Below are positions 1 through 17,261 of a DNA stretch of 64,000 bases, piece by piece (positions within the stretch are counted from its first letter, which is position 1; every line of letters begins with the position of its first letter). The translations under genes were made by a program, and so were the position numbers. The notes under the pieces were generated by a model, which saw only the letters and a list, made by a program, of their open reading frames with translations, ran no database searches and was not told where the DNA came from. The DNA comes from Halosimplex pelagicum (GTDB taxonomy: Archaea; Halobacteriota; Halobacteria; Halobacteriales; Haloarculaceae), in NCBI RefSeq assembly GCF_013415905.1, contig NZ_CP058909.1:3410001-3474000 (forward strand). Reading direction: 5' to 3'.

Positions 1-60
1 TCGGCCCACCGAGATAGACCCTGATTACACGTTTCTCACGAGAAACGCGAACCCTGACCG

Positions 61-2766: not shown

Positions 2767-3116
2767 CGCGACTCACTCCCGGCGGTCGGTCGCGGTCGGG
2801 GCGCGAGCGCGGCGGGTATCGGTCGATGCGTGTCGTCGGTCGGTGTCGTGGTGTCGTACATCGGTCTGTCTGTCAGCTGGTCGTCGAGCGGTGCGAACGC
2901 GGTCAGAATGGAAAGGTGTCGGGGCTAGGGGGCCCCTACAGGTACGGCGACGGCTACGGACGGCCGGGGCTCGCTCGCGGTGCGGGCGACGACTCCGTCG
3001 AACGGCCCTGTCATCGGTAGAGGGTGGACGAGGCGCCAACATAACGCTTACGTCATCGCGATACGCCGCAGCGCCGTCGCGATACGCACGGCCACCTCCG
3101 CGCGCGGCGTGGCGCG
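2767..3116. other. Intergenic region between valS and ferredoxin gene
   Basis: About 350 bases without a convincing conserved gene. On the minus strand it must hold the valS promoter; a TATA-like GTTATG occurs near 3041-3046, which would give a leader of about 250 bases. The complement of 2926-2940 contains GTAGGGGCCCCCTAG, a GC-rich palindrome. An 11-base direct repeat (TCGCGATACGC) lies at 3056-3066 and 3077-3087. A 32-codon ORF (2763-2861, minus) overlaps the valS start by ATGA. None of these is established as functional. Confidence 0.4.
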
Positions 3117-3458
3117 CTACTCCTCGTCGGTCACAGGTGCGCTGTCCGTGTGTTGGCCCCAGAAGCCGGGGAACTTCCGCGCCGCGAGGTCGCCCTCGAC
3201 GCGGGTCTGGCAGGTGAGTCGCAGTCCCGCGCCGGCGTCGTGGGGCGGGAAGTCGAGTCGCCAGCGCTCCCGGGCCGTCGGCGCGCTCGTCGGCCCGTCG
3301 ACCGCGACCGCGCAGGTGCCGCAGGTGCCGTGGCCGCCGCAGTTGACCCGCTTCGAGGTGCCGTTGTGCGGCACGAGGCCGGCGTCCAGAAGCACGTCCC
3401 GGAGGACCGCGCCGCGCTCGCAGTCGACCTCGCGGTCGCCGTAGCGGACCGTGGGCAT
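3117..3458 (-). CDS. 2Fe-2S ferredoxin-like protein
   Basis: Small plant-type (beta-grasp) iron-sulfur protein of 113 residues, probably a soluble electron carrier. The cluster-binding pattern is visible as NCGGHGTCGTC around residues 39-49 with the last cysteine in TCQT near 82. The protein is shorter than halophilic ferredoxins of the Halobacterium type and lacks their N-terminal insertion, so it is more like the short 2Fe-2S proteins. It lies 24 bases downstream of the exonuclease gene on the same strand and may be co-transcribed with it. The redox partner cannot be inferred. Confidence 0.85.
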   Translation of the reverse strand: MPTVRYGDREVDCERGAVLRDVLLDAGLVPHNGTSKRVNCGGHGTCGTCAVAVDGPTSAPTARERWRLDFPPHDAGAGLRLTCQTRVEGDLAARKFPGFWGQHTDSAPVTDEE

Positions 3459-3482
3459 ACCGGGGGTAGGACCCAGTCCGAC

Positions 3483-4205
3483 TTACCGGTTCGGACCGCC
3501 GCCGAAGGGTCGCGCGTCGGCCAGATCGAACAGGTGGACGATGTCCTCCCGGCCGTAGTGGTCGAGCAGTTCGCGGAGCGACCGGAAGGTGAGCGTCTCG
3601 GTCGCCCCGGCCTCGGCGAGTTTCAGGTACCGTTCGCCGAACACGGGAACGTCCTTGTTGATCACCTTCTCGAACCCCTCGTACTTCGGCGGTCGCAGTT
3701 CGTCCAGGGCGATGCCGTGGTCGTAGTCGGCCCACGCGGTGTCGGCGGTCTCGATACCGACTTCGGCACACGCCTCTTCGAGACGGGTGTACTCCCCGAA
3801 CGCGTCCCACGCGGCCGGCTGGATGTCGTCGTGAGTCAACTCCTCCTCCAGCAGCGCGCTGATCCGCTGGGACGGTCCCGTTCGTCCGGGATGCTCGCCC
3901 GTCGCGGCCTCGGCGCGCCCGACGAGATGCACGAAGTCGAAGCCCTCGCCGCCGTAGGTGAGACAGGTGTCGCCGGGCCGCTCGGCGATCCACCCGCAGG
4001 TCCGCTCGACGAGGTCGAGTTCCCCGTCGGGACCGTCGGCCTCCCGGTAGAGCATCTCGGTCTCCCGCTCGCCGTCCGGGCCTTCGTACCCGAGCGCGAC
4101 CGCGAGCAGTTCGAAGTGCGCCGAGTCGCGGAAATCGGGCGGCCGCTCGTAGTGGTCGAGCGACGGGCTGACCGTCTCGATGTCGAGTGCGAATCTGCCA
4201 GACAC
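3483..4205 (-). CDS. Predicted 3'-5' exonuclease, DEDD / PolB-exonuclease-like
   Basis: RNase H-fold protein of about 240 residues. The DEDD residues are visible: ALDIET right after the start (ExoI), YGGEGFD near residue 95 (ExoII) and YGREDIVHL near residue 220 (ExoIII). This matches the stand-alone relatives of the DNA polymerase B proofreading domain, so a DNA- or RNA-trimming role is likely, substrate unknown. The GTG at 4205 is preferred because it puts ExoI at residues 7-9 and has a TATA-like GCTTTTGG about 27 bases upstream. An upstream in-frame GTG at 4262 would add 19 residues. The ferredoxin gene follows 24 bases downstream. Confidence 0.75.
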   Translation of the reverse strand: MSGRFALDIETVSPSLDHYERPPDFRDSAHFELLAVALGYEGPDGERETEMLYREADGPDGELDLVERTCGWIAERPGDTCLTYGGEGFDFVHLVGRAEAATGEHPGRTGPSQRISALLEEELTHDDIQPAAWDAFGEYTRLEEACAEVGIETADTAWADYDHGIALDELRPPKYEGFEKVINKDVPVFGERYLKLAEAGATETLTFRSLRELLDHYGREDIVHLFDLADARPFGGGPNR

Positions 4206-4301
4206 GTGCGGGATAGACTCGCCCGGTCGCCAAAAGCGTACGAGATTCTCCCGGGGACTCACGTCGGCGCTCCAGCGCCGCCGCCGCGCCGGCCGAATCG
4301 G

Positions 4302-5258
4302 CTACGCCGAGTCGACGAACGACTCGTACGCGTCCTCGACACGCCCCTCGTCGGGCGTTCCCGAGTGAACCCACAGCCCCCAGGTCCACGACCGGGATTC
4401 GCCCTCTTCCAGCGTCTCGACGGTGCCCCACGTCGGGTTCGCGGCGAGGAAGCCGAACGGCTCGTCCATGACGAACCAGTTGACCGGGTCGCCGCCGTTG
4501 TCGGGGTGGTCGAACATGGCGACCCCGGCCGACCAGGGATCGCCGACCGCGGCTGCGCCGGGCCGCCCGTCCAGCGGCCCCGAGTAATCGCACCAGCGAG
4601 CGGCGGGGCCGCTCGCGGCCCGCGGCGGCGACGTTTCCCCGGGGTCCCGCCCGTCGGGCAGCAGCACGCGTCCCTCGCGCAGACTCCTCGCGAACCGCAG
4701 GCTCAGACCGCTGTAGTGGCCGTGCAGCGTCTCGCTGGAGAGGTGTCGGCGCTGGCCGAGCGCGGTCACCTCCTGCTCCCAGGTCAGGAGATACCCGTCC
4801 TTGCCCTCGTCGTCGGCGCCCGGGTCGCCCGCGCCGGGCTCCCTGATTCGGATCGTCCGGCGGTCGCCGAGCAGGTCCTCGCCGGCGTCGGTCCGCCAGG
4901 TGGCCTCCTGTTCGATCACGGCGCTGGCGCCGCCACCGTCGCCGTTCTCCGTCCGAACGTCGTACTCGCCGGCCTCCGCGTAGCCGTGGGGGTTCCCGGC
5001 GGCGGCGTTGGGCTCGGACTCCCAGCAGTTGATCCCGTCGACGAGCTTCTGGCAGAAGAACAGGCCGAAGTGCCAGGGGTGGTCGTGGGGCGACGACACC
5101 ACCAGGTTCTCGCCGGGTTTCGTGTCGGCGCCGGGCGGCAGCGCGAGCGTGTCGAAGCCGGGTTTGCTCCCCGCCGGCTCGGCGTCGTAGCGGGCCAGCA
5201 GCGTGTCGTCGACCGAGACCGACACGGCGCCGTCCTCGACGGCGGTCTCCAGCGTCAT
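4302..5258 (-). CDS. DUF6807 (PmoA-like) family protein
   Basis: Protein of 318 residues with the DHPWHFGLFF...VDGINCWE signature near residues 55-80 and a late RCL-type region, as in the DUF6807 family, which is associated with sugar utilisation clusters. The start ATG at 5258 overlaps the stop of the upstream oxidoreductase by four bases (ATGA), so the two are translated together. The enzymatic role is not known; proximity to a Gfo/Idh/MocA dehydrogenase suggests carbohydrate modification or catabolism. No signal peptide is visible, so it should be cytoplasmic. The open frame extends much further upstream, but that part is the shadow of the neighbouring genes. Confidence 0.8.
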   Translation of the reverse strand: MTLETAVEDGAVSVSVDDTLLARYDAEPAGSKPGFDTLALPPGADTKPGENLVVSSPHDHPWHFGLFFCQKLVDGINCWESEPNAAAGNPHGYAEAGEYDVRTENGDGGGASAVIEQEATWRTDAGEDLLGDRRTIRIREPGAGDPGADDEGKDGYLLTWEQEVTALGQRRHLSSETLHGHYSGLSLRFARSLREGRVLLPDGRDPGETSPPRAASGPAARWCDYSGPLDGRPGAAAVGDPWSAGVAMFDHPDNGGDPVNWFVMDEPFGFLAANPTWGTVETLEEGESRSWTWGLWVHSGTPDEGRVEDAYESFVDSA

Positions 5259-6337
5259 CGTGCGGCCTCCCGTGCGTCGGCCAGCACCTCGTCGGTCGTC
5301 ACGCGCTCGCCGTCCCGCGCCGCGCTCCGGTAGATCGCCCGAATGGCGGCCATCGTTCCGAGGTTGTCGCGACCGCTGGTCAGCGGCTCCGCGCCGCTCT
5401 CGACGCAGTCGACGAAGTGGAGGATCTCGTTGACGAACGCGTTCGCGGTGGGCAGATCCGTCCCGTCGCCCGCGACCTCGTCGAAGTCCTTGCGGCGGTC
5501 GGGGTCGTCCCGCGCGTTGATCCGCGGCGTCGGCGACCCGACGTAGCCCTCCTGTTGTTGCCCGTCGGGCAGCGTATGCACGACCCCGTCGTCGCCGAGC
5601 AGCCGGAACGACTCGGTGTAGGGCATCGCCGGCGCCGACAGCGCGACCGAGAAGTCGGCGATCGCGCCGGACTCGAACTCGAGCATCCCCGTGGCGTAGT
5701 CCTCGGCGTCCTCGAAGGCGTCGTCGACCGTCCGGGTCCACGCCGCCGCCCGTTCCACGTCGCCGAGGTAGTACCGCAGCAGGTCGAGCTTGTGGACGCT
5801 GTAGCCGATGACGCCGCCGCCGCCCGCTTTCTCCCCGTCGTAGAGCCAGTGCCCCTCCGGAAAGAGGTCGCCCTGGTTGACCAGCGCGTCGCAGCGGGCG
5901 TGGCGGATCTGCCCCAGCTCGCCCGCGTCGACGCGCTCCTTCAGCGCGCGGTAGGGCGGGTGGTAGCGCTGCATCTGCCCGACCAGCAGCGTCAGGTCGC
6001 GCTCGTCGGCCGACTCGACGAGTTCGACGCAGTCGCTCAGTGAAGGGGCCAGCGGTTTCTCGATCAGGACGTGTTTCCCGGCCTCCAGCGCGGCCTTCGC
6101 CACCGGGTAGTGGACGTGGTGGGGCAGCGCGATATCCACCGCGTCGATATCGGCCTCCGCCAGGAAGGTCTCGTGGTCGGTCCAGTAGTCGACGCCGAAG
6201 TCCTCGGCCACCGCTTCGGCTTTCTCGGCGTCCACGTCGCAGACGCCCGCCAGCGTCGCCTCGTCGGAGTGGTCCTCGTAGGCCGGCAGGTGTAACTCCG
6301 AGATCCCGCCGGCGCCGATGAGTCCGATCCTCGTCAT
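5255..6337 (-). CDS. Gfo/Idh/MocA family oxidoreductase
   Basis: NAD(P)-dependent sugar or inositol dehydrogenase-like protein of 360 residues. The Rossmann motif GLIGAGGISELH is at residues 5-16, the family motif EKPLAPS near 95, and the catalytic-region GGGGVIGYSVHKLDLLRYY near 175-195 with the conserved histidine. The start at 6337 is supported by a TATA-like GGGTAAAGG about 27 bases upstream on the minus strand, which implies a leaderless message shared with the downstream DUF6807 gene through a four-base overlap. The substrate cannot be read from sequence; a sugar or sugar acid is likely. Confidence 0.9.
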   Translation of the reverse strand: MTRIGLIGAGGISELHLPAYEDHSDEATLAGVCDVDAEKAEAVAEDFGVDYWTDHETFLAEADIDAVDIALPHHVHYPVAKAALEAGKHVLIEKPLAPSLSDCVELVESADERDLTLLVGQMQRYHPPYRALKERVDAGELGQIRHARCDALVNQGDLFPEGHWLYDGEKAGGGGVIGYSVHKLDLLRYYLGDVERAAAWTRTVDDAFEDAEDYATGMLEFESGAIADFSVALSAPAMPYTESFRLLGDDGVVHTLPDGQQQEGYVGSPTPRINARDDPDRRKDFDEVAGDGTDLPTANAFVNEILHFVDCVESGAEPLTSGRDNLGTMAAIRAIYRSAARDGERVTTDEVLADAREAAR

Positions 6338-6444
6338 GGGTCCGTCTCCGACGCGGGCGGCCTTTACCCTTGCCGCGCCGGCCGATCTCGCTTGGAGTCG
6401 GAGTCCCGGAGACTCGAACCGTCGCCGGTCGTGACAGCGAAACA

Positions 6445-6451
6445 CTAAATA
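6445..6451 (+). promoter_or_regulatory. TATA-like box of the M48 protease gene
   Basis: CTAAATA ends 23 bases before the ATG at 6475, the usual haloarchaeal leaderless spacing. It decides the start in favour of 6475 over an upstream in-frame ATG at 6370. Confidence 0.6.
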
Positions 6452-6474
6452 CGGGGCCGCCGGACTCCCGGACC

Positions 6475-8223
6475 ATGCAGTCCAGGCTGGTGGCAGTGGG
6501 GGCGGTCGCGCTGGTGTGTTCGGCCGCGTTGCTCGCGGTGGGGGTCGCCGCGGTCGACGCACAGGAGTCGGGCGGCGACGTGACGGTCCCCGACGCGGAC
6601 GCGGTCATCGTGGATATCAGTCCGGACGGCCCGGACACGGTGACGGTGTTCCTGCCGACGCGGACGACCGACGATCCGGTCCTGACGGTCGAGGAGATGG
6701 CCGCCAGGGCGCCGGTTCCCGCCCGTGTCGTCTCGGTCCGAGAGGTCGACGCCAGGGTCACGCGGTACGTCGACGGGAACCTCGTCGACGGTGGCGAGCT
6801 ATACCGGCTCGAGATCCTGACCGACCTCGACGAGCGAACGGGGCCGCTGAGCGGGACGGTGTCCGGGGATACGCTGGCTGCGCTGGCACCGACGGACACG
6901 CCGGCGTTCGTCGTCGACGTGCCGGCCGGGACGGCGGTCGACCGCGGCTCGGTCCGGTCGCGGTCGTTTTCGAGCACGCGATACGAGTGGCGGCCGTCCG
7001 GCGGGTCGCTCGACGGCCCGATCACCTACCGCTTCCCGACGAGCACCGTCGGCCTGCTGGCGGCGCTCCTGCTCGCGTCGCTGCTGGGGTCGTACGGCGC
7101 GGTCAGATACCGGGCCCGCTCCGTCGCCGACGGTCCCGAGCCGCTGACCGAACGAGTCCACGCCGTTCGAGGGACGAAGGCCAACGCGCTCCTAGTCGGT
7201 CCGGCCGCGGCGGTCGCGGTCGCGCTGTGGCTCGGGAGCGTCTCGCTCGTCTCGCTGGTCGCGGGGTGGATGCCGTCGGGGACGCCTTCGGGGGCCTGGT
7301 GGACGGTGACGCGCTGGACCGTCGCGCTGGCTCCGTTCGCCTGCAGCGCCTGGCTCGGGGCGACCTTCGGCGCCGAACCGGTCGTTCGGGACCTTATCGA
7401 CGCGCCGTTCGACCCGTTAGTGGTCCTCGGTGACTGGGCGAAGTCGGCGTTCTACCGGGTCGCCCGCTACTGGGTCGCCGGTGCGGTCCTGCTGACGCTC
7501 GCACCGCACATCCTCGAGACGCCGCTGGTCGGCGGCGTGGCCGTCACGCTACTGGTCGTGCTCGACTGGCTGGTCACACCGGTCGCGATCAGGGTGTTCA
7601 ACGACACCGCGCCGATACCCGGGGAGTTCGGGCGCGAGGTGACCGAATTCTGCGACCGACAGGGCGTGTCCGTCCGCGGAGTCCGTCGACTGGACACGGG
7701 CGACGCCCGTCACGCCAACGGCATCGCCACCGGGATGGTCGGCTACCACTGGGTGTTCCTGACCGACGACCTCCTCGACGAACTCGACCCCGACCAGATC
7801 CGGGCGATCGTGGCCCACGAACTCGGCCACCTCGACCGCCGCCATCTCCTCAAGCAGGCCGCGTTCACCCTGGGATTCTGGTCGCTCGCCTTCGTGGCGT
7901 TCGTCCACGTCTACACGGAGCTGTGGCTGTTCGTAGTCGCGGTCTGGGTGTACACGCAGCTGGGGCTCGGGTGGATCGGACAGGGCCAGGAGTACCAGGC
8001 CGACGACTACGCCGCCGAGGCGACGAGCCCCGACGCCCTCGCTGGGGCGCTCGACCGGCTCGCGACGGTCAACTTCGCGCTTCGGGACACGGGAGTCGCT
8101 CACAACTACGCCGCGAGACACCCGTCGATCGAGGACCGGATCGCCCGGCTGCGGGACGATTCGGAGCCGGACGAAGCGACGGACGAGCCCGACGCCGCCG
8201 GCCGGCCGACCGCTGCCGAGTGA
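6475..8223 (+). CDS. M48 family membrane metalloprotease (HtpX/Ste24-like)
   Basis: Zinc protease anchored in the membrane, 582 residues. A signal-like hydrophobic segment covers residues 5-28 and is followed by an extracytoplasmic region to about residue 190. Several membrane segments follow (near 193-213, 240-263, 280-300, 335-370). The catalytic HELGH is at H448-H452 and the third ligand is in EYQADDYAAE (E506); another hydrophobic pair lies between these motifs. A C-terminal ARHPSIEDRIARL is typical of M48. The large N-terminal outside domain before the peptidase is longer than in bacterial HtpX. Likely role: membrane protein quality control. The gene is divergent from the Gfo/Idh/MocA operon. 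Confidence 0.88.
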   Translation: MQSRLVAVGAVALVCSAALLAVGVAAVDAQESGGDVTVPDADAVIVDISPDGPDTVTVFLPTRTTDDPVLTVEEMAARAPVPARVVSVREVDARVTRYVDGNLVDGGELYRLEILTDLDERTGPLSGTVSGDTLAALAPTDTPAFVVDVPAGTAVDRGSVRSRSFSSTRYEWRPSGGSLDGPITYRFPTSTVGLLAALLLASLLGSYGAVRYRARSVADGPEPLTERVHAVRGTKANALLVGPAAAVAVALWLGSVSLVSLVAGWMPSGTPSGAWWTVTRWTVALAPFACSAWLGATFGAEPVVRDLIDAPFDPLVVLGDWAKSAFYRVARYWVAGAVLLTLAPHILETPLVGGVAVTLLVVLDWLVTPVAIRVFNDTAPIPGEFGREVTEFCDRQGVSVRGVRRLDTGDARHANGIATGMVGYHWVFLTDDLLDELDPDQIRAIVAHELGHLDRRHLLKQAAFTLGFWSLAFVAFVHVYTELWLFVVAVWVYTQLGLGWIGQGQEYQADDYAAEATSPDALAGALDRLATVNFALRDTGVAHNYAARHPSIEDRIARLRDDSEPDEATDEPDAAGRPTAAE

Positions 8224-8275
8224 TCCGGGCGTCCGCCACCGAGACACCCGGCCGTCGACGACAACGCTCCGGTCA

Positions 8276-9178
8276 TCAGTCGTCCGAATGCGCCCGGACC
8301 CACAGCTCGCCGATGCGCGACAGGCGCGTGCGATACGATTTCCCCTGTTCCTCCTGTTCGATGTAGCCCTTCCCGCCGGGACCGAGCCGGTCGACGTTGT
8401 AGATGACCTTCGAGCGGAAGCTATCGGTGTACTCCTCGCCGAGTTCGCGCGCGAGCTCCTGTGCGAGTTCCGACACCGACTCGAACTCGCCGTGCTCGCC
8501 GAGGGTGAAGAGGATGAGCTCCTCGAACGGTTTGACGTTGGAGAACGACGCGACGGGGAGTTCGAGGATATGCTTGCCGTCGAACTCCTTGGCGCCGATG
8601 GTGGTCCCGCGCTCGTCGAACTCCGCGAGCAGTTCCTCCGCGGCGGCCAGCCGCTCGTCGACGCGCTCGGCGAGTTCGGGGTCGTCGACGGCTCCTTCGA
8701 GGTCCGAGAGCAGGTCGATGCCGCGGTGGAGCTCCTCGGCGAGTTCCGTTTCGAGGTACTTCTCGGGGACGGTGTAGTAGGTGTGGATGCGCTGGCGGTC
8801 CTCCTCGCGCTCGACCATGATGGAGTGGGCGGCGGTGGCGAAGGCGAAGGAGACCGTGCGCGGCATCGCGGAGATGTTGACCCAGACGTTGGCGTCGGCC
8901 TCGCGGTCGAGTTCGGCGTTGATGAGTTCGAACGCCTGCTCGAAGGCCTCGTCGTAGTCGTAGACGTCCTCGACGACGAAGCGCTCGGTCGTGGCCCCGA
9001 GGAGGTTGCGGTAGTCCTTCTCCAGCTTGGCGGCGAGATTGCGGGAGTACTCGACGTTGGCCTCGCTGCCGACCGCGCCCTCCAGCAGGACGACGCGGTC
9101 CACGTCGAGCCTGTCGCGCACCAGCGGCGCGATCAGCCGGTCGTAGTCGAACCCGACCGGGACGATGTGTGTCTGCAT
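8276..9178 (-). CDS. HFX_2341-type regulator (DUF6293), CARF-like N-domain plus winged helix
   Basis: Predicted cytoplasmic transcription regulator of 300 residues. The N-terminal half (residues 1-150) has alternating strands and helices with the pattern THIVPVGFDYDRL, VVLLEG and VWVNISAMPRTVSFA, like a Rossmann-type CARF ligand-binding domain. The C-terminal third (about 205-298, starting at ASFSNVKPFEELILFTL) looks like a winged helix. A coiled region joins them. TATA box GTATAAAG (complement) at 9202-9209 fits a leaderless start at 9178. The symporter gene lies immediately upstream in the same orientation, 57 bases away. Ligand and targets are unknown; family recognition is from recall of haloarchaeal annotations. 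Confidence 0.75.
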   Translation of the reverse strand: MQTHIVPVGFDYDRLIAPLVRDRLDVDRVVLLEGAVGSEANVEYSRNLAAKLEKDYRNLLGATTERFVVEDVYDYDEAFEQAFELINAELDREADANVWVNISAMPRTVSFAFATAAHSIMVEREEDRQRIHTYYTVPEKYLETELAEELHRGIDLLSDLEGAVDDPELAERVDERLAAAEELLAEFDERGTTIGAKEFDGKHILELPVASFSNVKPFEELILFTLGEHGEFESVSELAQELARELGEEYTDSFRSKVIYNVDRLGPGGKGYIEQEEQGKSYRTRLSRIGELWVRAHSDD

Positions 9179-9201
9179 ACGCGGTAGGTGGCCCCCGCGG
9201 C

Positions 9202-9209
9202 GTATAAAG
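9202..9209 (-). promoter_or_regulatory. TATA box of the CARF-like regulator gene
   Basis: The plus strand reads GTATAAAG, the complement CTTTATAC, about 27 bases before the ATG at 9178. It indicates that the regulator has its own leaderless promoter even though the symporter lies just upstream on the same strand. Confidence 0.6.
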
Positions 9210-9235
9210 TCCGTAGACTCTCCGGGCCGCTCCGG

Positions 9236-10741
9236 TCAGTCCGCGCCCGTCGCGTACACCGACGCGTCCGCCTCGGGACTCGCGGTCGTCACCAGTGAGA
9301 CGCCGACGGTCAAGACGAACCCGAGGAGCATACACGGGACGGAGATGCTCCAGCCGAACAGCGCGTCGGGGACGCCGAGCGGGACAGTCCCCACGACGGG
9401 GAGCGACACCGGGACCACCGGAAGCAGCGCGCCCGCCGCGTAGACGAGCTGGCTGCCGCCGATCCCGACGTACATCCCCCACCGCGTCGTCCGTCCCCAG
9501 TACAGCGCCACGGCGACCGGGAGCGCCAACTGCGCGAAGCCGCCGAACGCGGTGTCGCCGATCTGCAACAGCGACGCCGGCTGGAACAGGCTGGCGACGA
9601 ACGACAGGGTGGCGAAGACGGCGACGCCGACGCGGCCGAGGAACGCCTCGCGCGCTTCGGAGGCCTCCGCGACGAGCGGGCGGTAGATGTCGCGGGTGAA
9701 GTAGGACGAGCCCGACAGCAGCATCGAGTCGCTGGAGGACATCATCGCGGCCATCGCGCCCGCGACGACGAGCGCCGCGAACCACGCGGGGGTGTACTCC
9801 GCGAGCAGGAGGGGAAGGACGTTCTCGTTGGCGCCGGCCTGGATACCGAGGCCCCGCGCCCACGACCCCATCATGAACGCCGGGACGAACAGGAGGACGA
9901 CGAGAACGGGCCATAGCGGGAGCGTGCGCTTGATGACGGCCTTCGACTCCGCGACGAAGAATCGCTGGTTGACCTGCGGGAACATCGTGACGCCGAAGGC
10001 GATGGAGATGGCCGTCGAGAGGACGTACTCGGGCGTGTAGGTGCCGCCGCCGAGCGCGAGGAAGTTGCCGTCCACGCCGCCGAGTGTCGCGGTCGCGGAG
10101 CCGACGCCGCCGACGGCGCTGGCGACCCAGGCGAACGCCGCCCAGACGATCACGAGCATGAACGCGCCCTGGAGCGTGTCCGTCCAGGCGACGCCTCGCA
10201 TCCCCGAGAGCGCGACGTAGCCGATCATGAACAGCGTGATCCCGCCCGCGCCGGCCCAGTAGGGGACCGCGCCGCCGGTCAGCGCCTCGATGGCCGTGCC
10301 GGCGCCCTGCTGCTGGAGCATCACGTAGGGGAACAGCCAGAAGATGCTGACGCCGGCGACCAGCAGGCGCAGGCGGAGCGACCCGAAGCGGTCGCCCAGC
10401 ATCTCCCCGAGGGTGAGGTAGCCGTTGGCCTTCCCGACGAGCCACTGCTTGTAGCCGAGGACGTACCACAGGACCCCGAAGATGACGCCGTCCATCAGGC
10501 CCATGACGAGGATCCACTCCGGGCCGGCGCCGTAGCTGATGTTCGGCCCGGCGAAGAACGTAAACGCCGAGAGGAGCGTCGCGAACGTCGTGAAGAGGAG
10601 GACGACGGTCCCCAGAGTGCGGCTGGCGAGGTAGTAGTCCTCGGCGGTCCGCTCGGTCAGGCGATAGGCGACGACGCCGATGGCCAGCGCGACGAGCATG
10701 TAGCCGACGATGATCCCGACCTGCAGGGCGGTGTCAGCCAT
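9236..10741 (-). CDS. Sodium:solute symporter family protein (SSS)
   Basis: Multi-pass membrane transporter of 501 residues in the sodium/solute symporter family (proline, pantothenate and sugar carriers). About 13 hydrophobic segments can be counted. SSS features include YYLASRTLGTVVLLFTTFATLLSAFTF near residues 36-62, the GYLTLGEMLGDRFGS segment near 105-120 and AGAMAAMMSSSDSMLLSGSSYFTRD near 325-350. It overlaps the small DUF3311 gene by eight bases, an arrangement common for this transporter type. Substrate is unknown; an organic solute driven by the sodium gradient is expected. Confidence 0.93.
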   Translation of the reverse strand: MADTALQVGIIVGYMLVALAIGVVAYRLTERTAEDYYLASRTLGTVVLLFTTFATLLSAFTFFAGPNISYGAGPEWILVMGLMDGVIFGVLWYVLGYKQWLVGKANGYLTLGEMLGDRFGSLRLRLLVAGVSIFWLFPYVMLQQQGAGTAIEALTGGAVPYWAGAGGITLFMIGYVALSGMRGVAWTDTLQGAFMLVIVWAAFAWVASAVGGVGSATATLGGVDGNFLALGGGTYTPEYVLSTAISIAFGVTMFPQVNQRFFVAESKAVIKRTLPLWPVLVVLLFVPAFMMGSWARGLGIQAGANENVLPLLLAEYTPAWFAALVVAGAMAAMMSSSDSMLLSGSSYFTRDIYRPLVAEASEAREAFLGRVGVAVFATLSFVASLFQPASLLQIGDTAFGGFAQLALPVAVALYWGRTTRWGMYVGIGGSQLVYAAGALLPVVPVSLPVVGTVPLGVPDALFGWSISVPCMLLGFVLTVGVSLVTTASPEADASVYATGAD

Positions 10742-10955
10742 CGCGGCTCACCCCCTCGACGCCGAGGCCCCACGCGCGTCGGGTGAACACCCAGAAGACG
10801 ACCGCTGTCAGGCAGAGCCAGCCGACGTGGTACCACACCCAGACGGGCAGCCCCGCGACGACGCCGTCGGCGCCCCACATGAACCACGGGACCGACAGCG
10901 CCGCCAGCGCGACCGCTATCGCCGCCCAGCCGACCAGCCGCGTGTACTCGTTCAT
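10734..10955 (-). CDS. DUF3311 small membrane protein
   Basis: Protein of 73 residues with two hydrophobic segments (about 8-28 and 38-58) separated by a short loop with VPWFMWGADGVVAGLPVWVWYH, as in DUF3311. These proteins are encoded directly before sodium:solute symporters and probably act as a small accessory subunit. Start 10955 has a TATA-like GGTTAAGG about 27 bases upstream. The stop overlaps the symporter start by eight bases. A perfect 9-7-9 inverted repeat lies upstream at 11013-11037. Confidence 0.8.
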   Translation of the reverse strand: MNEYTRLVGWAAIAVALAALSVPWFMWGADGVVAGLPVWVWYHVGWLCLTAVVFWVFTRRAWGLGVEGVSRDG

Positions 10956-11012
10956 ACGCGACCGTTCGGCTACACGCCCCTTAACCTTTCGTCGATCGCC
11001 TACGGAGACACA

Positions 11013-11037
11013 CATCGAAGAAAATTTCTCTTCGATG
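11013..11037. promoter_or_regulatory. Candidate operator, 25-base 9-7-9 inverted repeat
   Basis: Perfect arms CATCGAAGA and TCTTCGATG surround the AT-rich centre AAATTTC. It lies about 27 bases upstream of the putative TATA box (10978-10986) for the DUF3311-symporter operon and about 160 bases before dnaG. Position and symmetry suit a dimeric DNA-binding regulator; the CARF-like regulator encoded next to the symporter is one candidate, but that is inference. Confidence 0.45.
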
Positions 11038-11173
11038 CGTGCGGGAGCGACCGCGCCGGTTCGAGTTCCGGAGATATCCGAGGCATCGGCAGATATTACA
11101 GTCGTCGAGTGACAAGTTACGGGTTGTTCCATGAGGTCGTTCATGGACCGCGGTTCACCATCACCCACAGCAC

Positions 11174-11188
11174 GCCCCGAACCGGGGC
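11174..11188 (+). promoter_or_regulatory. GC hairpin in the dnaG leader
   Basis: GCCCCG and CGGGGC flank a three-base loop and end nine bases before the dnaG ATG, where a ribosome binding site would be expected. Possible translational control element; six base pairs in GC-rich DNA can also occur by chance. Confidence 0.25.
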
Positions 11189-11197
11189 AGTTCACCA

Positions 11198-12601
11198 ATG
11201 TACGATTCAGCCAAGTATCTGATCCACGCGGACATCAGGACCAGCGGGGTGGTCGAGCGGAGTGACGTGGTCGGCGCGGTCTTCGGGCAGACCGAAGGCC
11301 TCCTCGGCGACGAACTCGACCTGCGAGACCTCCAGGAGTCGGGGAAGCTCGGCCGCATCGACGTGGAGGTCGACTCCGAGCGCGGGAGCTCCTTCGGCGA
11401 GGTCACCATCGCCAGCGGGCTCGACCGCGTCGAGACGGCGATCCTCGCGGCCGCGCTGGAGAGCATCGAGCGCGTCGGCCCGTCGACGGCCGACGTCGAG
11501 ATTCGCGACATCGAGGACGTGCGCTCGGCCAAGCGCCGGCGCGTCGTCGAGCGCGCCAAGGAGCTGCTCGCGGAGTTCGACGCGACCGCGATGTCCAGCG
11601 AGGACCTCGTCGACGAGGTCCGCCGGAGCGCTCGCGTCGAGGACATCTCCGAGTTCGCCGGCCTGCCCGCGGGCCCCCGCGTCGCCGACAGCGACGCGAT
11701 CATCGTCGTCGAGGGCCGCGCCGACGTGCTCCAGCTGCTCAAGTACGGCATCAAGAACGCCATCGCGGTCGAGGGAACGGATGTGCCCGACGCCGTCGCC
11801 GAACTCACCGACGACCGGACCGTCACCGCGTTCCTCGACGGCGACCGCGGCGGGGACCTCATCCTGAAGGAGCTGTCGCAGGTCGGCGACGTTGACTACG
11901 TCGCGCTCGCGCCCACCGGCCAGTCCGTCGAGGACCTCTCGCGGAGCGCCGTCATGGACGCGCTGCGCGACAAGGTGCCCTTCGAGACGGTCTCGGCCGC
12001 CGATGCCGAGGCCAGCGACGCTCACGGCCTCGCCGCCACCGACGGGAGCACCAGACCGTCGCCGCCCGACGACGACTCGGCGACCGCCGACCCCGAGGCG
12101 CCCGTCGAACCCGGACGGCCCGCCGAACCGCCCGACCCCAGCGGCGACGCCCCGGCCGCGGAGTCGTCGGCCGACCCAGCCGACGCGGCGACCGACTCCG
12201 ACCCGGATACGACCGATTCCGACCCGGACGCGGTCGAATCGGACGAACCCGAACCTGACGAACCCGAACCTGACCCGGAGACCGCGGAGACGGGGGACCG
12301 TCCGGCCGACCCGGAGACGCTCGCCGGCCAGGTCCGTGCGGTCGTGGGCGAGTCGACCGGGACCGTCAGACTCCTCGACGGGAACTACGAGGCGGTCGCC
12401 GGCGGACCGGCAGCGGAGGCGTTCGACCTCCTGGAAGCCGCGGAGACGGTCCCCGAGACGGTCGTGCTCGACGGGGTGGTATCCCAGCGCGTCCTCGACG
12501 TGGCCGCCCAGCGGGGCGTCGACCTCGTCGTCGCCCGCGAGGAGGGCGAGTACGTCAAACAACCCGTCTCGCCGCGCGTGCTCACGGCCGACGAGGTCTG
12601 A
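11198..12601 (+). CDS. dnaG: DNA primase DnaG (archaeal type)
   Basis: Archaeal DnaG of 467 residues with a TOPRIM domain: IIVVEGRADVLQLLKYG at 168-184 with the acidic E172, and AFLDGDRGGD at 211-220 with the DxD pair D214/D216. The N-terminal part (1-160) matches the archaeal DnaG family, which has no zinc-finger domain. In archaea DnaG is associated with the exosome and RNA processing as well as with priming. Residues about 265-375 form a long low-complexity acidic Asp/Pro/Glu linker, longer than in non-halophilic orthologs, before a conserved C-terminal domain. The start has no TATA at -27, so a leader of 60-80 bases is likely; a GC hairpin lies nine bases before the start. Confidence 0.93.
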   Translation: MYDSAKYLIHADIRTSGVVERSDVVGAVFGQTEGLLGDELDLRDLQESGKLGRIDVEVDSERGSSFGEVTIASGLDRVETAILAAALESIERVGPSTADVEIRDIEDVRSAKRRRVVERAKELLAEFDATAMSSEDLVDEVRRSARVEDISEFAGLPAGPRVADSDAIIVVEGRADVLQLLKYGIKNAIAVEGTDVPDAVAELTDDRTVTAFLDGDRGGDLILKELSQVGDVDYVALAPTGQSVEDLSRSAVMDALRDKVPFETVSAADAEASDAHGLAATDGSTRPSPPDDDSATADPEAPVEPGRPAEPPDPSGDAPAAESSADPADAATDSDPDTTDSDPDAVESDEPEPDEPEPDPETAETGDRPADPETLAGQVRAVVGESTGTVRLLDGNYEAVAGGPAAEAFDLLEAAETVPETVVLDGVVSQRVLDVAAQRGVDLVVAREEGEYVKQPVSPRVLTADEV

Positions 12602-12613
12602 GCGACCCCCTTC

Positions 12614-13087
12614 TCACTCGCCCAGTTCGCGCGCGAGCAGGAACCCGTCCCCCCGCTCGTAGCGGTCCGGGAGCCGCTCGCGCCGCTCGAACCCGCGCTC
12701 GCGGTAGAACGCGCGCGCCGCCTCGTCCACCTCGCGGACGGTCACGCGGAGTTCCCCGACGCCGGACTCGTGGAGCCGGTCGACCAGCGCGTCCAGTAAC
12801 GCCGAGCCGTGGCCCTCGCCCTGGTGGTCGGGCGCGACCGCGAGTTCGGCGAGGTAGCCCGCGTCGTCGTCCCCGTCGGTGACCGCGAGCGCGTAGCCGA
12901 CGGGGGTCGCTCCAGCGCCGGACCCGGCGTCGGGGCTCGCGGGCGTCGCGACCAGCAGTAGCGGCGGGCCGTCGGCGGCGACGGCCAGCAGTTCCTCCCA
13001 GGGTTCGGCGAGGGCGGCGGCCTGGATGGCGCGCAGCGCAGGCAGATCGGTCGACCGACCCTCGCGGACGCGGGTCTCGTCGGTCAT
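12614..13087 (-). CDS. GNAT family N-acetyltransferase (RimI-like)
   Basis: Acetyl-CoA-dependent acetyltransferase of 157 residues. The GNAT core is visible: strand ELAVAPDHQGEGHGSALLDAL around residues 87-107 contains the acetyl-CoA pyrophosphate-binding pattern (Q/R-x-x-G-x-G), and AARAFYRERGFERRERL near 125-141 is motif B. It could be a RimI-type protein N-terminal acetyltransferase, but specificity is not certain. The start at 13087 overlaps the stop of the upstream DUF92 gene by four bases. It is convergent with dnaG, only 12 bases away. Confidence 0.85.
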   Translation of the reverse strand: MTDETRVREGRSTDLPALRAIQAAALAEPWEELLAVAADGPPLLLVATPASPDAGSGAGATPVGYALAVTDGDDDAGYLAELAVAPDHQGEGHGSALLDALVDRLHESGVGELRVTVREVDEAARAFYRERGFERRERLPDRYERGDGFLLARELGE

Positions 13088-14433
13088 AGGACGGCGATCG
13101 GGACCGCCACGGCGGCGACGCCGGCGGCCGCGATCCCGGCGGCCAGCGTCGCGAAGAAGTTGACGCCCTCGTTCTCCAGGAAGACGCCTTCGACGGTGGC
13201 ACCCAGCAGGCTGTCGACGGTCATACCGACGACGCCGCCGAAGACGACGATGCCGGCGCCCAGCGCGTCCACGCGGCCGAACGCGCCGAGCGCGATGGCG
13301 GCGATGAGACAGGCGCCGGCGAGTCCCGCCACCTCGCCCTGCCAGGTGACGGCGCCGTCGGTCCCCGGTTCGACGCGCTCGAAGGTGGTGATCAGCCGCG
13401 GGTCGTCGAAGACGCCGCCGATCTCGCTGGAGAGCGTGTCGCTCATCGCGGCGGCGATCGACCCGGCGAACGCGAAGAGGAACAGCTCCGGGTCGAGACC
13501 CGTCAGCGTCGGGCTCGCCGACCACCCGAGAACGGCGAGCAGGCCGACGAGCGAGTTGGCGAGGACGTTCCCGCTGCCGCGGGCGCCCTCGTTCTCCTCG
13601 GCGATGCCGCGCCGTTCTTTCTCCTCGTAGCGGAACTTCGTCGAGAGGCCGCCGACGCCGAAGAAGGTCACCAGCAGGACGAACCACCCGAAGTCGCCGA
13701 GGACGATCGTCTGCAGACAGAGGAAGACGCCGGTGATCATCCCCGGGAGCGACGCCGTCTCCAGCGCGTAGGCGAGGTAGCCGAAGAGGAACGCCAGCGC
13801 CAGCGCGGCCGCGACGACGGGGGGTTCGATCGACAGCGGCAGGTCGGCGAACAGCCACAGCAACAGGCCGATCGAGACCATCACCAGCGGGTCGTCGCGC
13901 TCGAACAGCACGGCGCGCAACAGCGCGCCCAGCAGGGCGCCGCTGGCGGAGAGGAACGCCACGAGCGGCCACTCGACGGTGGTTCCGATCAGGCGGGCGG
14001 CGGCGTACTGGCCGACGCTGCCGGCGAGGAAGCCCGCGAGGACGAACCCGGCGGTCGCGACGAACGGCTCGTCGCGCACCGTCCGGACGAGGTGGCCGCC
14101 GAGGTTCCCCCACGCGAGCAGGAGGACGGTTCCGACGAAGACCGTCGGCGGGAGAGCGAACCGCACGGACAGAAGCGCCAGCGCCGCGGCGGCCAGCGCG
14201 AAGCCGGCGAGTCCGTACAGCCGGCCGTCGCGGCGGTCGCCCGGCCGGGCGAACAGTTCGAAGACCGCCCCCTCGTCGACGACGTACAGCGCGAGGGCGG
14301 CGACGAGGAGGAAGGGGCCGGGCGCGGCGACGGTCGCGAGCGCCCGACTCGTTCGGCTGGCGATCGGTGGGACGGCGAGCGCCAGCGTCCCGACGAGGGC
14401 GAACGCGCCCGCGCGCCGGACTGTCGTTGTCAC
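13084..14433 (-). CDS. DUF92 family membrane protein (polyprenol/phytyl-phosphate kinase-like)
   Basis: Integral membrane protein of 449 residues with roughly 11-12 hydrophobic segments. The C-terminal half carries the DUF92 signature: TFFGVGGLSTKFRYEEKERRGIAEENEGARGSG in pieces around 255-290, then AAMSDTLSSEIG and GTDGAVTWQGE near 330-370. Plant relatives act as phytyl-phosphate kinases, so a CTP-dependent isoprenoid (phosphate) kinase role is plausible. GTG start at 14433. It overlaps the downstream acetyltransferase by four bases and is divergent from the cis-prenyltransferase-like gene, which also points to isoprenoid alcohol metabolism. Confidence 0.82.
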   Translation of the reverse strand: MTTTVRRAGAFALVGTLALAVPPIASRTSRALATVAAPGPFLLVAALALYVVDEGAVFELFARPGDRRDGRLYGLAGFALAAAALALLSVRFALPPTVFVGTVLLLAWGNLGGHLVRTVRDEPFVATAGFVLAGFLAGSVGQYAAARLIGTTVEWPLVAFLSASGALLGALLRAVLFERDDPLVMVSIGLLLWLFADLPLSIEPPVVAAALALAFLFGYLAYALETASLPGMITGVFLCLQTIVLGDFGWFVLLVTFFGVGGLSTKFRYEEKERRGIAEENEGARGSGNVLANSLVGLLAVLGWSASPTLTGLDPELFLFAFAGSIAAAMSDTLSSEIGGVFDDPRLITTFERVEPGTDGAVTWQGEVAGLAGACLIAAIALGAFGRVDALGAGIVVFGGVVGMTVDSLLGATVEGVFLENEGVNFFATLAAGIAAAGVAAVAVPIAVL

Positions 14434-14611
14434 GCTATGTCCGGTATCCCCGGTGAGCTACTTACCGTTTCCGAACCACTTCGCCCGGTGGCGGCGGCGT
14501 GACACGTTCTCTCCCTCGCCGGCCCGGCGCCGGTCCGCGGCCGCCGGTCGAGTCGCGGCCGACGCGGTCGCCGAGCGTGAGGTTTAGGTCCTGTCCGAGA
14601 AAAGCGGGGAC

Positions 14612-15220
14612 GTGGGACTGTACGACCGCTATCTCGGCCTCCGACTGCGCTCCAGCGACGCCGACCTCCCCGGGACGGTCGCGGTCATCGTCACCGAACG
14701 GGACCTGCTCGAAGCCGGCGCCTACGAGACGCTGGAGGCCTGCTTCGAGTGGGCCTTCGAGTTCGGCGCCGAGCGCGTCGTCGTCTACGTCAGCGTCCTC
14801 GACACCGAGGTCGTCGACACCATCCGCCGGGAGCTCGACGACGTGGACGCCCCCCGCGAACTCGCCGTCCGCGGGCCGGAGGACGACGAGCAGGCCGACG
14901 CGCCGATTCAGGTCGGAATCGGCCTCGGGGGCAAACACGAGTTCGCTTCCGCGGTTCGGGGCCTCGCCGAGGAAGTCGACGCCGGCGAGCTGGCCCCCGA
15001 AGACATCGACGAGGCGGCTATCGAAGGCGAACTCGTCTTCCCGGTCCAGCCGGATCTGGTCGTCAAGACCGGCGCCGAGCGGCTCTCCGATTTCATGATC
15101 TGGCAGTCCGTCTACTCCGAGCTGTACTTCACCGACGTGAACTGGCGGGACTTCCGCCGGCGGGACTACCTGCGCGCGCTCCGGGACTATCAGAATCGAC
15201 AGCGGCGATTCGGCCGGTAG
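14612..15220 (+). CDS. Cis-prenyltransferase-like (UppS family) protein lacking the catalytic DGN motif
   Basis: Short UppS-family protein of 202 residues, against about 250-300 for catalytic enzymes. The C-terminal signature is clear: GLGGKHEFASAVR at 105-116, then PDLVVKTGAERLSDFMIWQ at 147-165 and SELYFTDVNWRDF at 169-181, ending in the RFG of an RxG-type tail. The N-terminal pyrophosphate-binding motif (HxxxIMDGNxR in catalytic members) is replaced by VAVIVTERD at 23-31, so the catalytic aspartate is missing. It may be an NgBR/Nus1-like partner of a second cis-prenyltransferase. Starts with GTG, which excludes the missing motif from a simple upstream extension unless another start is used. 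Confidence 0.8.
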   Translation: MGLYDRYLGLRLRSSDADLPGTVAVIVTERDLLEAGAYETLEACFEWAFEFGAERVVVYVSVLDTEVVDTIRRELDDVDAPRELAVRGPEDDEQADAPIQVGIGLGGKHEFASAVRGLAEEVDAGELAPEDIDEAAIEGELVFPVQPDLVVKTGAERLSDFMIWQSVYSELYFTDVNWRDFRRRDYLRALRDYQNRQRRFGR

Positions 15221-15249: not shown

Positions 15250-16428
15250 TCAGAACCCGAACACCGGGACGAACCGGAAGGTGAGGTACGCGCCGGCGGT
15301 GGCGATGGCCGGCACGACGTTCTGCATCAGGACGACGCGAGCGGTCGTCGCGGGGTTGAACAGGTCGCCGGGCTCGGGGATGTCTTCGGAGTTCTCCTCG
15401 CCGATGGGGGGCAACTCCTCGCCGGGTTCGTCGGCGGCCAGCGCGTCGACGGTGACCGGCGGGGTCTCCTCCGCGGAGACGGCCTCGGGGACGGTCACCG
15501 GACGGGTCGCCCGGCCCCAGCCGAGTCCGATGATGCTCACCGTCGCGATGATGACGAAACTCGCGGGGATCCCCAGCGCCGAGAGGAAGACGACCAGCGC
15601 GGAGCTGACCGTCGCGACGACGATCGCGGCCGTCAGCGGGAGCTCCGTGATGTCGCTGCCCATCGTCTCCAGGGTCCGCCGCGCGATGGTGAACGCGCCG
15701 ATGGTGACGGCGATCCCGCCCAGTATGATCGCGGGGTCCATCCGCAGTTCGCCGCTCCCGACCAGCGGGGCGACGGCGTTGGCGATGTTCGACGTGCCGG
15801 AGCTGAAGGCCATCAGACAGCCGATCGCGACGACCGTGACCGTCCCGACCAGCTCGCGGCGGTTCGTCGTCCGGTGGACACTCACCGAGGGGACGAGCCC
15901 GGAGCGGTCCACGTCCAGCAGCGGGCCCTCGCTGCGCTCCATGGCCACCAGCCGGTTGAGCCGGGCGTAGAAGTACCGGCCGATGATCAGCGACACCCAG
16001 AAGCCGATGATCGGCGAGACGACCCACCAGGTGACGATCTCGCCCATGACGGCCATGTCGAGCACGCCGCCGGCCAGCGCCAGCCCGGCGATCGCGCCGA
16101 CCGCGGTCATCGAGGTCGAGGCCGGGACGCCGAAGACGTTCCCGACCAGCAGCGCGACCCCGATGAAAAACAGGACAGCGATCGACGTCTCGAGCGTGAA
16201 CACGCCGGGGTCGGTGACCAGCTCCGTCCCGAGCTTCGTCACGACGTTGCGGCCGATCGTCCAGGCCCCGACGAAGAAGAACACGCCCATCAGCGCCGCG
16301 GCCGCCGTCTTCGAGATCGCGTCGGCGCCTACGGCCGGCCCGAACGCCGGACCGGTCGTCGACCCGCCGATGTTGTAGGCGACGAACATCGAGACGAGCA
16401 CGCCGACGACGAGGAGTGGGTCGACCAT
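15250..16428 (-). CDS. pit: PiT family inorganic phosphate transporter
   Basis: Integral membrane phosphate permease of 392 residues. The two PiT signature blocks are seen: VAYNIGGSTTGPAFGPAVG near residues 16-35 and its inverted counterpart SSGTSNIANAVAPLVGSGEL near 210-230, each with the GxxNDxA-like pattern degenerate to NIGGS and SNIANA. About ten membrane segments, with a hydrophilic loop near 305-365 containing Glu/Pro-rich sequence. The start codon overlaps the stop of the upstream repeat protein by one base (TGATG), so the two are translationally coupled. Likely a low-affinity, cation-coupled phosphate importer. Confidence 0.92.
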   Translation of the reverse strand: MVDPLLVVGVLVSMFVAYNIGGSTTGPAFGPAVGADAISKTAAAALMGVFFFVGAWTIGRNVVTKLGTELVTDPGVFTLETSIAVLFFIGVALLVGNVFGVPASTSMTAVGAIAGLALAGGVLDMAVMGEIVTWWVVSPIIGFWVSLIIGRYFYARLNRLVAMERSEGPLLDVDRSGLVPSVSVHRTTNRRELVGTVTVVAIGCLMAFSSGTSNIANAVAPLVGSGELRMDPAIILGGIAVTIGAFTIARRTLETMGSDITELPLTAAIVVATVSSALVVFLSALGIPASFVIIATVSIIGLGWGRATRPVTVPEAVSAEETPPVTVDALAADEPGEELPPIGEENSEDIPEPGDLFNPATTARVVLMQNVVPAIATAGAYLTFRFVPVFGF

Positions 16429-17261
16429 CAGCTCCCCTCGTCGTCGGTCTCGTCGCCGTCGGTTTCGTCGGTTCCGGTCCCGTCGGCGTCGGTCTCGCCG
16501 TCCTCCAGCTGTTCTTCCAGCGTCTCCTCGACGGTATCTTCGACCGTCTCCTCGACGGTGTCTTCGACCGTCTTCTCGACCGTCTCCTCGACGGTATCTT
16601 CGACAGTTTCGCCGACTTTCTCTTCGACCGTCTCGCCGACCGTCTCCTCGACCGTCTCTTCGACGGACTCCTCGACGGTTTTCTCGACGGTTTCACCGAC
16701 CTTCTCCTCGACGGACTCCTCGACGGTTTCGCTGACCGTCTCTTCGACGGTCTCCTCGACGGTTTCGCTGACCGTCTCTTCGACGGTTTCACCCACTTTC
16801 TCCTCGACGGTTTTCTCGACGGTCTCGCCGACTTTCGCCTCCACGGTTTCGTCGACGGTCTCTTCGACGGTCTCGCCGACGGTCTTTTCGACGGTTTCGC
16901 CGACAGTCTTCTCGACGGTCTCCTCGACGGTTTCGCCGACGGTCTTTTCGACGGATTCGTCGACGGCGCTACCGACGGTTTCGTCCACCGTCTCTTCGAC
17001 GGTTTCCTCGACGGTTTCGCCGACTTTCGCCTCCACGGTTTCGTCGACGGTCTCCTCGACCGTCTCCTTGACCGCGGTGGTCATCCAGTCGGGGTCGAAG
17101 CGGGCCATCTTCCAGACCACGTGGATCAGATACGAGATGAGGACGCCGAAGCCGAACGCCAGGCCGATGGCGTTGTCGGCGACGACGATGAGTCCCACGG
17201 ACACCGCGATCAACAGCCCGTAGGTCAGGTCGACCAGGGAGTCGACGCGGCTCGGGTTCAT
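16428..17261 (-). CDS. Two-TM membrane protein with about 47 ETVx tetrapeptide repeats
   Basis: Protein of 277 residues with an unusual architecture. Residues 1-62 hold two membrane segments (about 12-28 and 31-50). Residues 64-252 are an almost uninterrupted array of four-residue units of the form E-T-V-x (variants KTVE, EKVG, DSVE), putting valine at every fourth position with acidic residues between. The last 25 residues are Asp/Glu/Gly/Thr-rich. The strict period of four, not 3.5, argues against a normal coiled coil. It overlaps the phosphate transporter by one base, so a role in transporter assembly or regulation is inferred. No known family was recognised. Confidence 0.8.
   Translation of the reverse strand: MNPSRVDSLVDLTYGLLIAVSVGLIVVADNAIGLAFGFGVLISYLIHVVWKMARFDPDWMTTAVKETVEETVDETVEAKVGETVEETVEETVDETVGSAVDESVEKTVGETVEETVEKTVGETVEKTVGETVEETVDETVEAKVGETVEKTVEEKVGETVEETVSETVEETVEETVSETVEESVEEKVGETVEKTVEESVEETVEETVGETVEEKVGETVEDTVEETVEKTVEDTVEETVEDTVEETLEEQLEDGETDADGTGTDETDGDETDDEGS
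16510..17072 (-). repeat. 12-base coding tandem repeat (ETVx array)
   Basis: The DNA encoding the ETVx units is an array of degenerate 12-base repeats, about 47 in succession. On the plus strand they read as variants of TCGACGGTCTCC, GTCGACGGTTTC and CCGACGGTCTTT. Synonymous variation between copies indicates that the peptide rather than the DNA is under selection. Such arrays are prone to copy-number change. Confidence 0.85.

Follow-up and report, generated by a model that had tools for sequence, protein, structure and literature searches.

The 202-residue protein encoded at 14612..15220 of the window, the 64,000-nt stretch of the Halosimplex pelagicum chromosome analyzed here, most likely belongs to a heteromeric cis-prenyltransferase that makes a glycosyl-carrier lipid, as its obligate non-catalytic subunit, with the catalytic paralog of the same genome (L001) as its partner; we put the probability of this reading at roughly 0.87. 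The evidence comprises fold homology, loss of the catalytic motif, complementarity of motifs between the two paralogs, their near-universal co-occurrence, their gene neighborhood and the single origin of the non-catalytic copies. We infer a physical complex, its activity and its product, as well as a role for the DUF92 protein encoded next door. The features of immediate concern are as follows.

13084..14433, minus strand: DUF92 integral membrane protein of 449 aa (PF01940, E=4.3e-58), divergent from the non-catalytic gene and 178 bp from it
14434..14611, no strand: divergent intergenic region of 178 bp between the DUF92 and non-catalytic genes, taken from their coordinates
14612..15220, plus strand: 202-aa predicted NgBR-like, non-catalytic subunit of a heteromeric cis-prenyltransferase; starts with GTG, coordinates including the stop codon
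14675..14707, plus strand: TVAVIVTERDL at the position of the catalytic HVAIIMDGNxR motif, from an alignment of 45 relatives
15197..15217, plus strand: C-terminal RQRRFGR with the RxG motif, which is found in relatives; role taken from human NgBR, whose tail extends into the active site of its partner (PMC7573591)

The original prediction had described a UppS relative of 202 residues with VAVIVTERD in place of the DGN motif and an RFG ending, and Pfam and the translation bear this out. The PF01255 match is confined to residues 96-201, the C-terminal half of the protein, and the NCBIfam models for UppS hit that half too, all below their cut-offs. The protein is a cis-prenyltransferase homolog, as judged from the Pfam match (E=4.6e-26) and from Foldseek matches to UppS and DHDDS chains. 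It nevertheless lacks DGNxR, and with it the catalytic Asp by which a homodimeric catalytic UppS is recognized, and it ends in QRRFGR, with RxG present. Among the 45 aligned relatives, the haloarchaeal consensus at the DGN-motif site is VAxVITERDLLExGAY, and the invariant residues cluster in the C-terminal half. A longer product with the DGN motif, translated from an upstream start, had been named in advance as evidence against a non-catalytic subunit, and it is excluded. An in-frame TAG lies at 14585, 27 bases (nine codons) 5' of the GTG start, and the eight codons between them include no ATG, GTG or TTG when read in frame; therefore, extending the protein upstream cannot restore DGN.

A second, catalytic uppS in the genome had also been anticipated, and there is exactly one. 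The H. pelagicum genome (5.2 Mb, one contig) holds exactly two PF01255 genes, one complete and one with the C-terminal half only. The complete gene lies beyond the window, 26 kb from the non-catalytic gene.

G000:C1:3397948-3398874, plus strand: catalytic cis-prenyltransferase copy L001, 308 aa, PF01255 domain at 3398035 (E=1.7e-70)

Its product carries HVAVIQDGNRRYA, in which DGNRR is intact, and its family domain ends in YEHREESWRK, without RxG at that place. The motifs are split within the genome, in that L001 has the catalytic motif without the RxG tail and the 202-residue protein has the RxG tail without the catalytic motif.

This split extends well beyond H. pelagicum. Nearly all of the 146 genomes examined from the order carry two PF01255 genes, and when the window protein was used as the query, nearly all of 117 genomes yielded a relative over its full length. 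In a sample of 158 genomes covering the phylum, 155 have the PF01255 family, and a profile search identified a clear non-catalytic copy in 151 of these 155, all with an E-value of 7e-33 or better. Two further genomes (family f26) have a diverged non-catalytic copy, a frame of 164-168 codons ending in RRFG, and no such copy was found in two family-bearing genomes that are 87 and 89% complete. DGNxR occurs in all 84 complete catalytic copies (the one catalytic copy counted without it at first is truncated by the end of its contig) versus none of 84 distinct non-catalytic sequences. The reverse holds for the C-terminal RxG, which is present in 83 of the 84 non-catalytic sequences, with KxG in the remaining one, and was not found at the equivalent place in catalytic copies, an RxG-like triplet occurring nearby in 4 of 85. 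All non-catalytic copies group together in the tree against all catalytic ones (95/100 support); the non-catalytic copies of the phylum have a single origin. They are strongly conserved, with an N-terminal half that is much diverged in a few families (f9, f26). One could regard the short gene as a decaying uppS duplicate, a pseudogene or a mis-called gene, considering its length and missing catalytic motif. However, relatives that are 57-78% identical over their full length occur in nearly all Halobacteriales genomes sampled, the copies share one origin across the phylum, the TERDL and RRFG segments are conserved and the fold model is confident. Conservation refutes decay, and we give this explanation practically no weight.

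Several genomes depart from the usual complement of genes. The non-catalytic subunits of family f9 (L062, L080 and L081, in G009, G025 and G037) are highly diverged and have lost the TERDLL segment while keeping an RR[FY]GR end. Three genomes of family f24 (G152, G161 and G170, 86-91% complete) have no PF01255 gene, which every other family sampled has; either contigs are missing or this lineage makes its carrier lipids another way. A third haloarchaeal PF01255 paralog (L185, G003:C1:478925-479599) reads IPDGHRRYA, with DGH replacing DGN, has the C-terminus LRRNEGR and is possibly a separate prenyltransferase. One genome (G040; C31, C39) has two catalytic genes, each near one of two non-catalytic genes, and another (G065) has three catalytic genes with one non-catalytic copy listed.

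Structural models agree with a division of labor between the paralogs. The AF2 model of the 202-residue protein (pLDDT 87, pTM 0.84) has the cis-prenyltransferase fold, and Foldseek placed Bacillus subtilis UppS first among its matches, followed by other UppS and DHDDS chains, with E-values to 4e-12. Between strands 55-61 and 84-87 the model has a single 12-residue helix; helices 78-82, 85-104 and 106-110 occupy this stretch in the catalytic model, whose helix 126-138 has no counterpart. Helices alpha2 and alpha3 form the walls of the hydrophobic tunnel in human DHDDS, and NgBR is without a substrate cavity (PMC7573591). Judged from its model, the 202-residue protein seems to have lost the tunnel much as NgBR has. 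The catalytic model, for its part, finds human DHDDS (6z1n_A) as its best match by E-value and superimposes on E. coli UppS with a TM-score of 0.91, normalized to UppS. The archaeal catalytic profile likewise has human DHDDS as its best PDB match.

Some binding-site residues do persist in the short protein. Its R157 and S159 align with R200 and S202, and a Lys occupies the R194 position; from the IPP-site residues R157 and S159, the non-catalytic copy may bind ligand weakly. These same residues could be taken to mean that the short protein is itself an active enzyme whose altered active site works without DGN, such as a prenyltransferase of the short-chain or irregular type, and Methanosarcina does have a third, irregular paralog of the MM_0014 type in the family (the three expected paralogs are present in G267, from the same family as Methanosarcina, and include one that closely matches the crystallized MM_0014 and its ortholog over the whole length). 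However, the MM_0014-type enzyme retains PDGNRRW, whereas DGNxR is missing from all 84 relatives of the short protein, and the latter's tunnel-helix segment is down to one helix, with the 126-138 helix gone. We consider independent activity very improbable.

Heteromeric enzymes of the kind that we propose have precedents among archaea. Methanosarcina mazei MM_0618 and MM_1083 constitute a heteromeric cis-prenyltransferase with C45-50 products for glycosyl carriers, according to a passage of PMC8131916 that cites Emi et al. 2019. Like the pair described here, these are two archaeal cis-prenyltransferase paralogs, and the organisms belong to the same phylum. The Methanosarcina copies in our tree, which come from other named loci of the genus and are not the M. 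mazei sequences, share the non-catalytic clade with the 202-residue protein and are about 37-38% identical to it. The two genes are apart in the Methanosarcina genomes read, whereas in haloarchaea they are usually convergent neighbors. In Archaeoglobus fulgidus, Af1219 and Af0707 were reportedly found to be a catalytic and a non-catalytic subunit, respectively, by Sompiyachoke et al. in 2022. One genome of our sample (G234), which is likely A. fulgidus, has its catalytic copy at 1.09 Mb and its non-catalytic copy at 0.64 Mb, fitting these gene numbers. A divergent DUF92 gene adjoins the non-catalytic copy there, as in the window, and this copy is 30% identical to the 202-residue protein over the alignment. 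By sequence, the H. pelagicum protein falls in one clade with the Methanosarcina and likely Archaeoglobus copies (95/100 support).

It might still be argued that the short protein is a regulatory pseudoenzyme that tunes the level or location of a catalytic enzyme working as a homodimer. Human DHDDS homodimers are partly active without NgBR (PMC7573591), and the archaeal catalytic copy might be too. However, RxG is missing from its place in the catalytic copies and is exactly the motif that the partner brings, near-universal co-occurrence points to an obligate partner, and the M. mazei pair is reported as a heteromeric enzyme in the PMC8131916 passage. A purely regulatory role is therefore improbable in our estimation, albeit somewhat less so than independent activity. 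The heteromeric prenyltransferase put forward in the original prediction is strongly supported by the presence of exactly one second, catalytic uppS, the split motifs, the near-universal pairing, the convergent neighbors and the M. mazei precedent from that passage.

The archaeal pair resembles the human DHDDS/NgBR complex (NUS1; PDB 6z1n, 6w2l; PMC7573591), in which NgBR likewise lacks DGN and has the C-terminal RxG, and DHDDS lacks RxG. The tail of NgBR crosses the dimer interface and helps build both substrate sites of DHDDS; yeast Nus1 is without a canonical RxG (PMC7573591). The archaeal non-catalytic profile aligns with human NgBR from end to end (E=8e-10 and 8e-11), whereas bacterial UppS matches to the haloarchaeal profile are mostly limited to its C-terminal part. 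At the site of the typical haloarchaeal HVALVITERD, NgBR reads HMGLVITEVE, so that VITE is common to both. The N-terminal half of NgBR scored 18.6 bits with the non-catalytic profile versus 7.8 with the catalytic one, the best shuffles reaching 5.3 and 5.8. However, DHDDS scored above NgBR with the non-catalytic N-half profile, at 26.8 bits. In the tree NgBR sits on a very long branch (6.6) and is unplaced, and an AU test left both groupings standing, NgBR plus archaeal clade (p=0.34) and NgBR plus DHDDS (p=0.33). Tentatively, then, the eukaryotic heteromer may have been inherited whole from archaea, DHDDS from the catalytic and NgBR/Nus1 from the non-catalytic subunit, but we hold this to be rather less likely than not. 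The signs in its favor are the end-to-end match of NgBR, the shared VITE with the N-half scores, and DHDDS as the best PDB match. The A. fulgidus study reportedly favored convergence.

The designation of the subunit as NgBR-like holds for the missing DGN and the RxG end. It does not extend to strict membership of the NgBR/Nus1 group, as NgBR is unplaced in the tree and the membrane anchor is lacking: NgBR has one at its N-terminus, whereas the 202-residue protein opens with a helix of 13 residues, three of them Arg, and inspection found no hydrophobic segment of membrane length in it.

By analogy with the human enzyme, we propose that the 202-residue protein would pair with L001 through the conserved cis-prenyltransferase dimer face. 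L001 would provide the catalytic Asp of DGNRR, the diphosphate-binding Arg and Ser residues and the tunnel helices, and the RRFG tail of its partner would cross the interface to complete the substrate sites of L001, as NgBR does for DHDDS. We infer this completion of the catalytic active site by the short subunit because the split of motifs equals that of the human complex. The complex would elongate an allylic diphosphate by cis addition of isopentenyl diphosphate, and the resulting polyprenyl diphosphate would be the precursor of glycosyl carriers of the dolichyl-phosphate type. The DUF92 protein probably has its place in this carrier pathway too, and may be a lipid kinase.

Gene order also connects the two paralogs. 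Of 115 loci from the order, 90 have the catalytic and non-catalytic genes as convergent neighbors within 3 kb of each other, and other families of the phylum contribute 12 loci with a convergent pair. In H. pelagicum the two have been separated. A relative (G098) has the order catalytic (+), non-catalytic (-), DUF92 (+), DnaG-like (-), permease (+), and H. pelagicum has catalytic (+) ... permease (-), DnaG-like (+), DUF92 (-), non-catalytic (+). An inversion relative to G098 in G000:C1:3397948-3425220 (positions 1-15220 of the window plus upstream sequence) parts the catalytic uppS from the non-catalytic gene, and because it moved the block off, no catalytic uppS was seen nearby when the window was first read. 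The two genes are ancestral neighbors. G109, the closest relative, has some 160 kb between them. Other genes around the locus are listed below.

11198-12601, plus strand: Toprim-domain (DnaG-like) protein with a long acidic Asp/Pro-rich linker
12614-13093, minus strand: GNAT acetyltransferase, adjoining the DUF92 gene
16428-17261, minus strand: 277-aa protein with about 60 hydrophobic N-terminal residues followed by about 180 residues of ETVEETVE-type repeats

In relatives G098 and G075, too, the DnaG-like gene adjoins that for DUF92. The gene for the 277-aa repeat protein has tandem units of 24, 36 and 84 bp at 16522-17074 and adjoins a gene for a PHO4-type phosphate transporter.

With only 1.5 kb of flank read per locus, DUF92 is the divergent neighbor of the non-catalytic gene in 28 of 30 haloarchaeal loci, G109 being one of the two without it. 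Elsewhere in the phylum, the same holds for 12 of 26 loci in other families, among them that of the likely A. fulgidus genome. From its position, the 178-bp region between the two genes is a possible shared promoter region. The synteny with DUF92 that the original prediction expected to be conserved is so, and it had already been published: a passage of Makarova et al. 2015 (PMC5898192) names arCOG01532 (uppS) as the only conserved context of arCOG02245 (DUF92) and suggests a kinase step in isoprenoid biosynthesis. This is the same neighborhood as that of the window. However, that passage calls the neighbor plain uppS, whereas here the immediate divergent neighbor of DUF92 is the non-catalytic paralog.

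The DUF92 gene is present as a single copy in the genome. Its product also matches TIGR00297, below the cut-off, and haloarchaeal DUF92 proteins have invariant residues in the DUF92 half, such as D332, E337 and D407. The plant relative VTE6 is a phytyl-phosphate kinase. From family and neighborhood, the H. pelagicum protein is a candidate prenol(-phosphate) kinase; the salvage kinase for dolichol-like carriers proposed earlier is plausible, and the protein may instead act elsewhere in the carrier cycle. We found no report of enzyme activity for an archaeal DUF92 protein in the literature searched. An N-terminal Sec59-like half has been described for Mbar_A3310 in a section of PMC5898192. An internal duplication of this kind was rejected for the haloarchaeal proteins, as profile comparison of their N- and C-terminal halves gave a probability of 0.2%. 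A search of the genome for a Sec59/CdsA-type PF01148 gene returned one match, below the cut-off.

Heteromeric enzymes in archaea and eukaryotes were already known, as was the DUF92-uppS context from 2015 (the PMC5898192 passage). What is new is the haloarchaeal assignment, the phylum-wide complementarity of motifs, the conserved convergent arrangement and the inversion in the H. pelagicum genome. A specialist would expect such a result, and it overturns nothing. It does advise caution with annotation, as a gene labeled uppS beside DUF92 is often the non-catalytic paralog. The haloarchaea, with their well-studied N-glycosylation and dolichyl phosphate, would join the organisms with a two-subunit cis-prenyltransferase, and the split-motif pair with its DUF92 neighbor is spread over the whole phylum. 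Mutations in the human enzyme, which has the same RxG design, cause disease, and the genetically tractable Haloferax volcanii would allow a test of how an RxG tail supplied by one subunit might complete its partner's active site.
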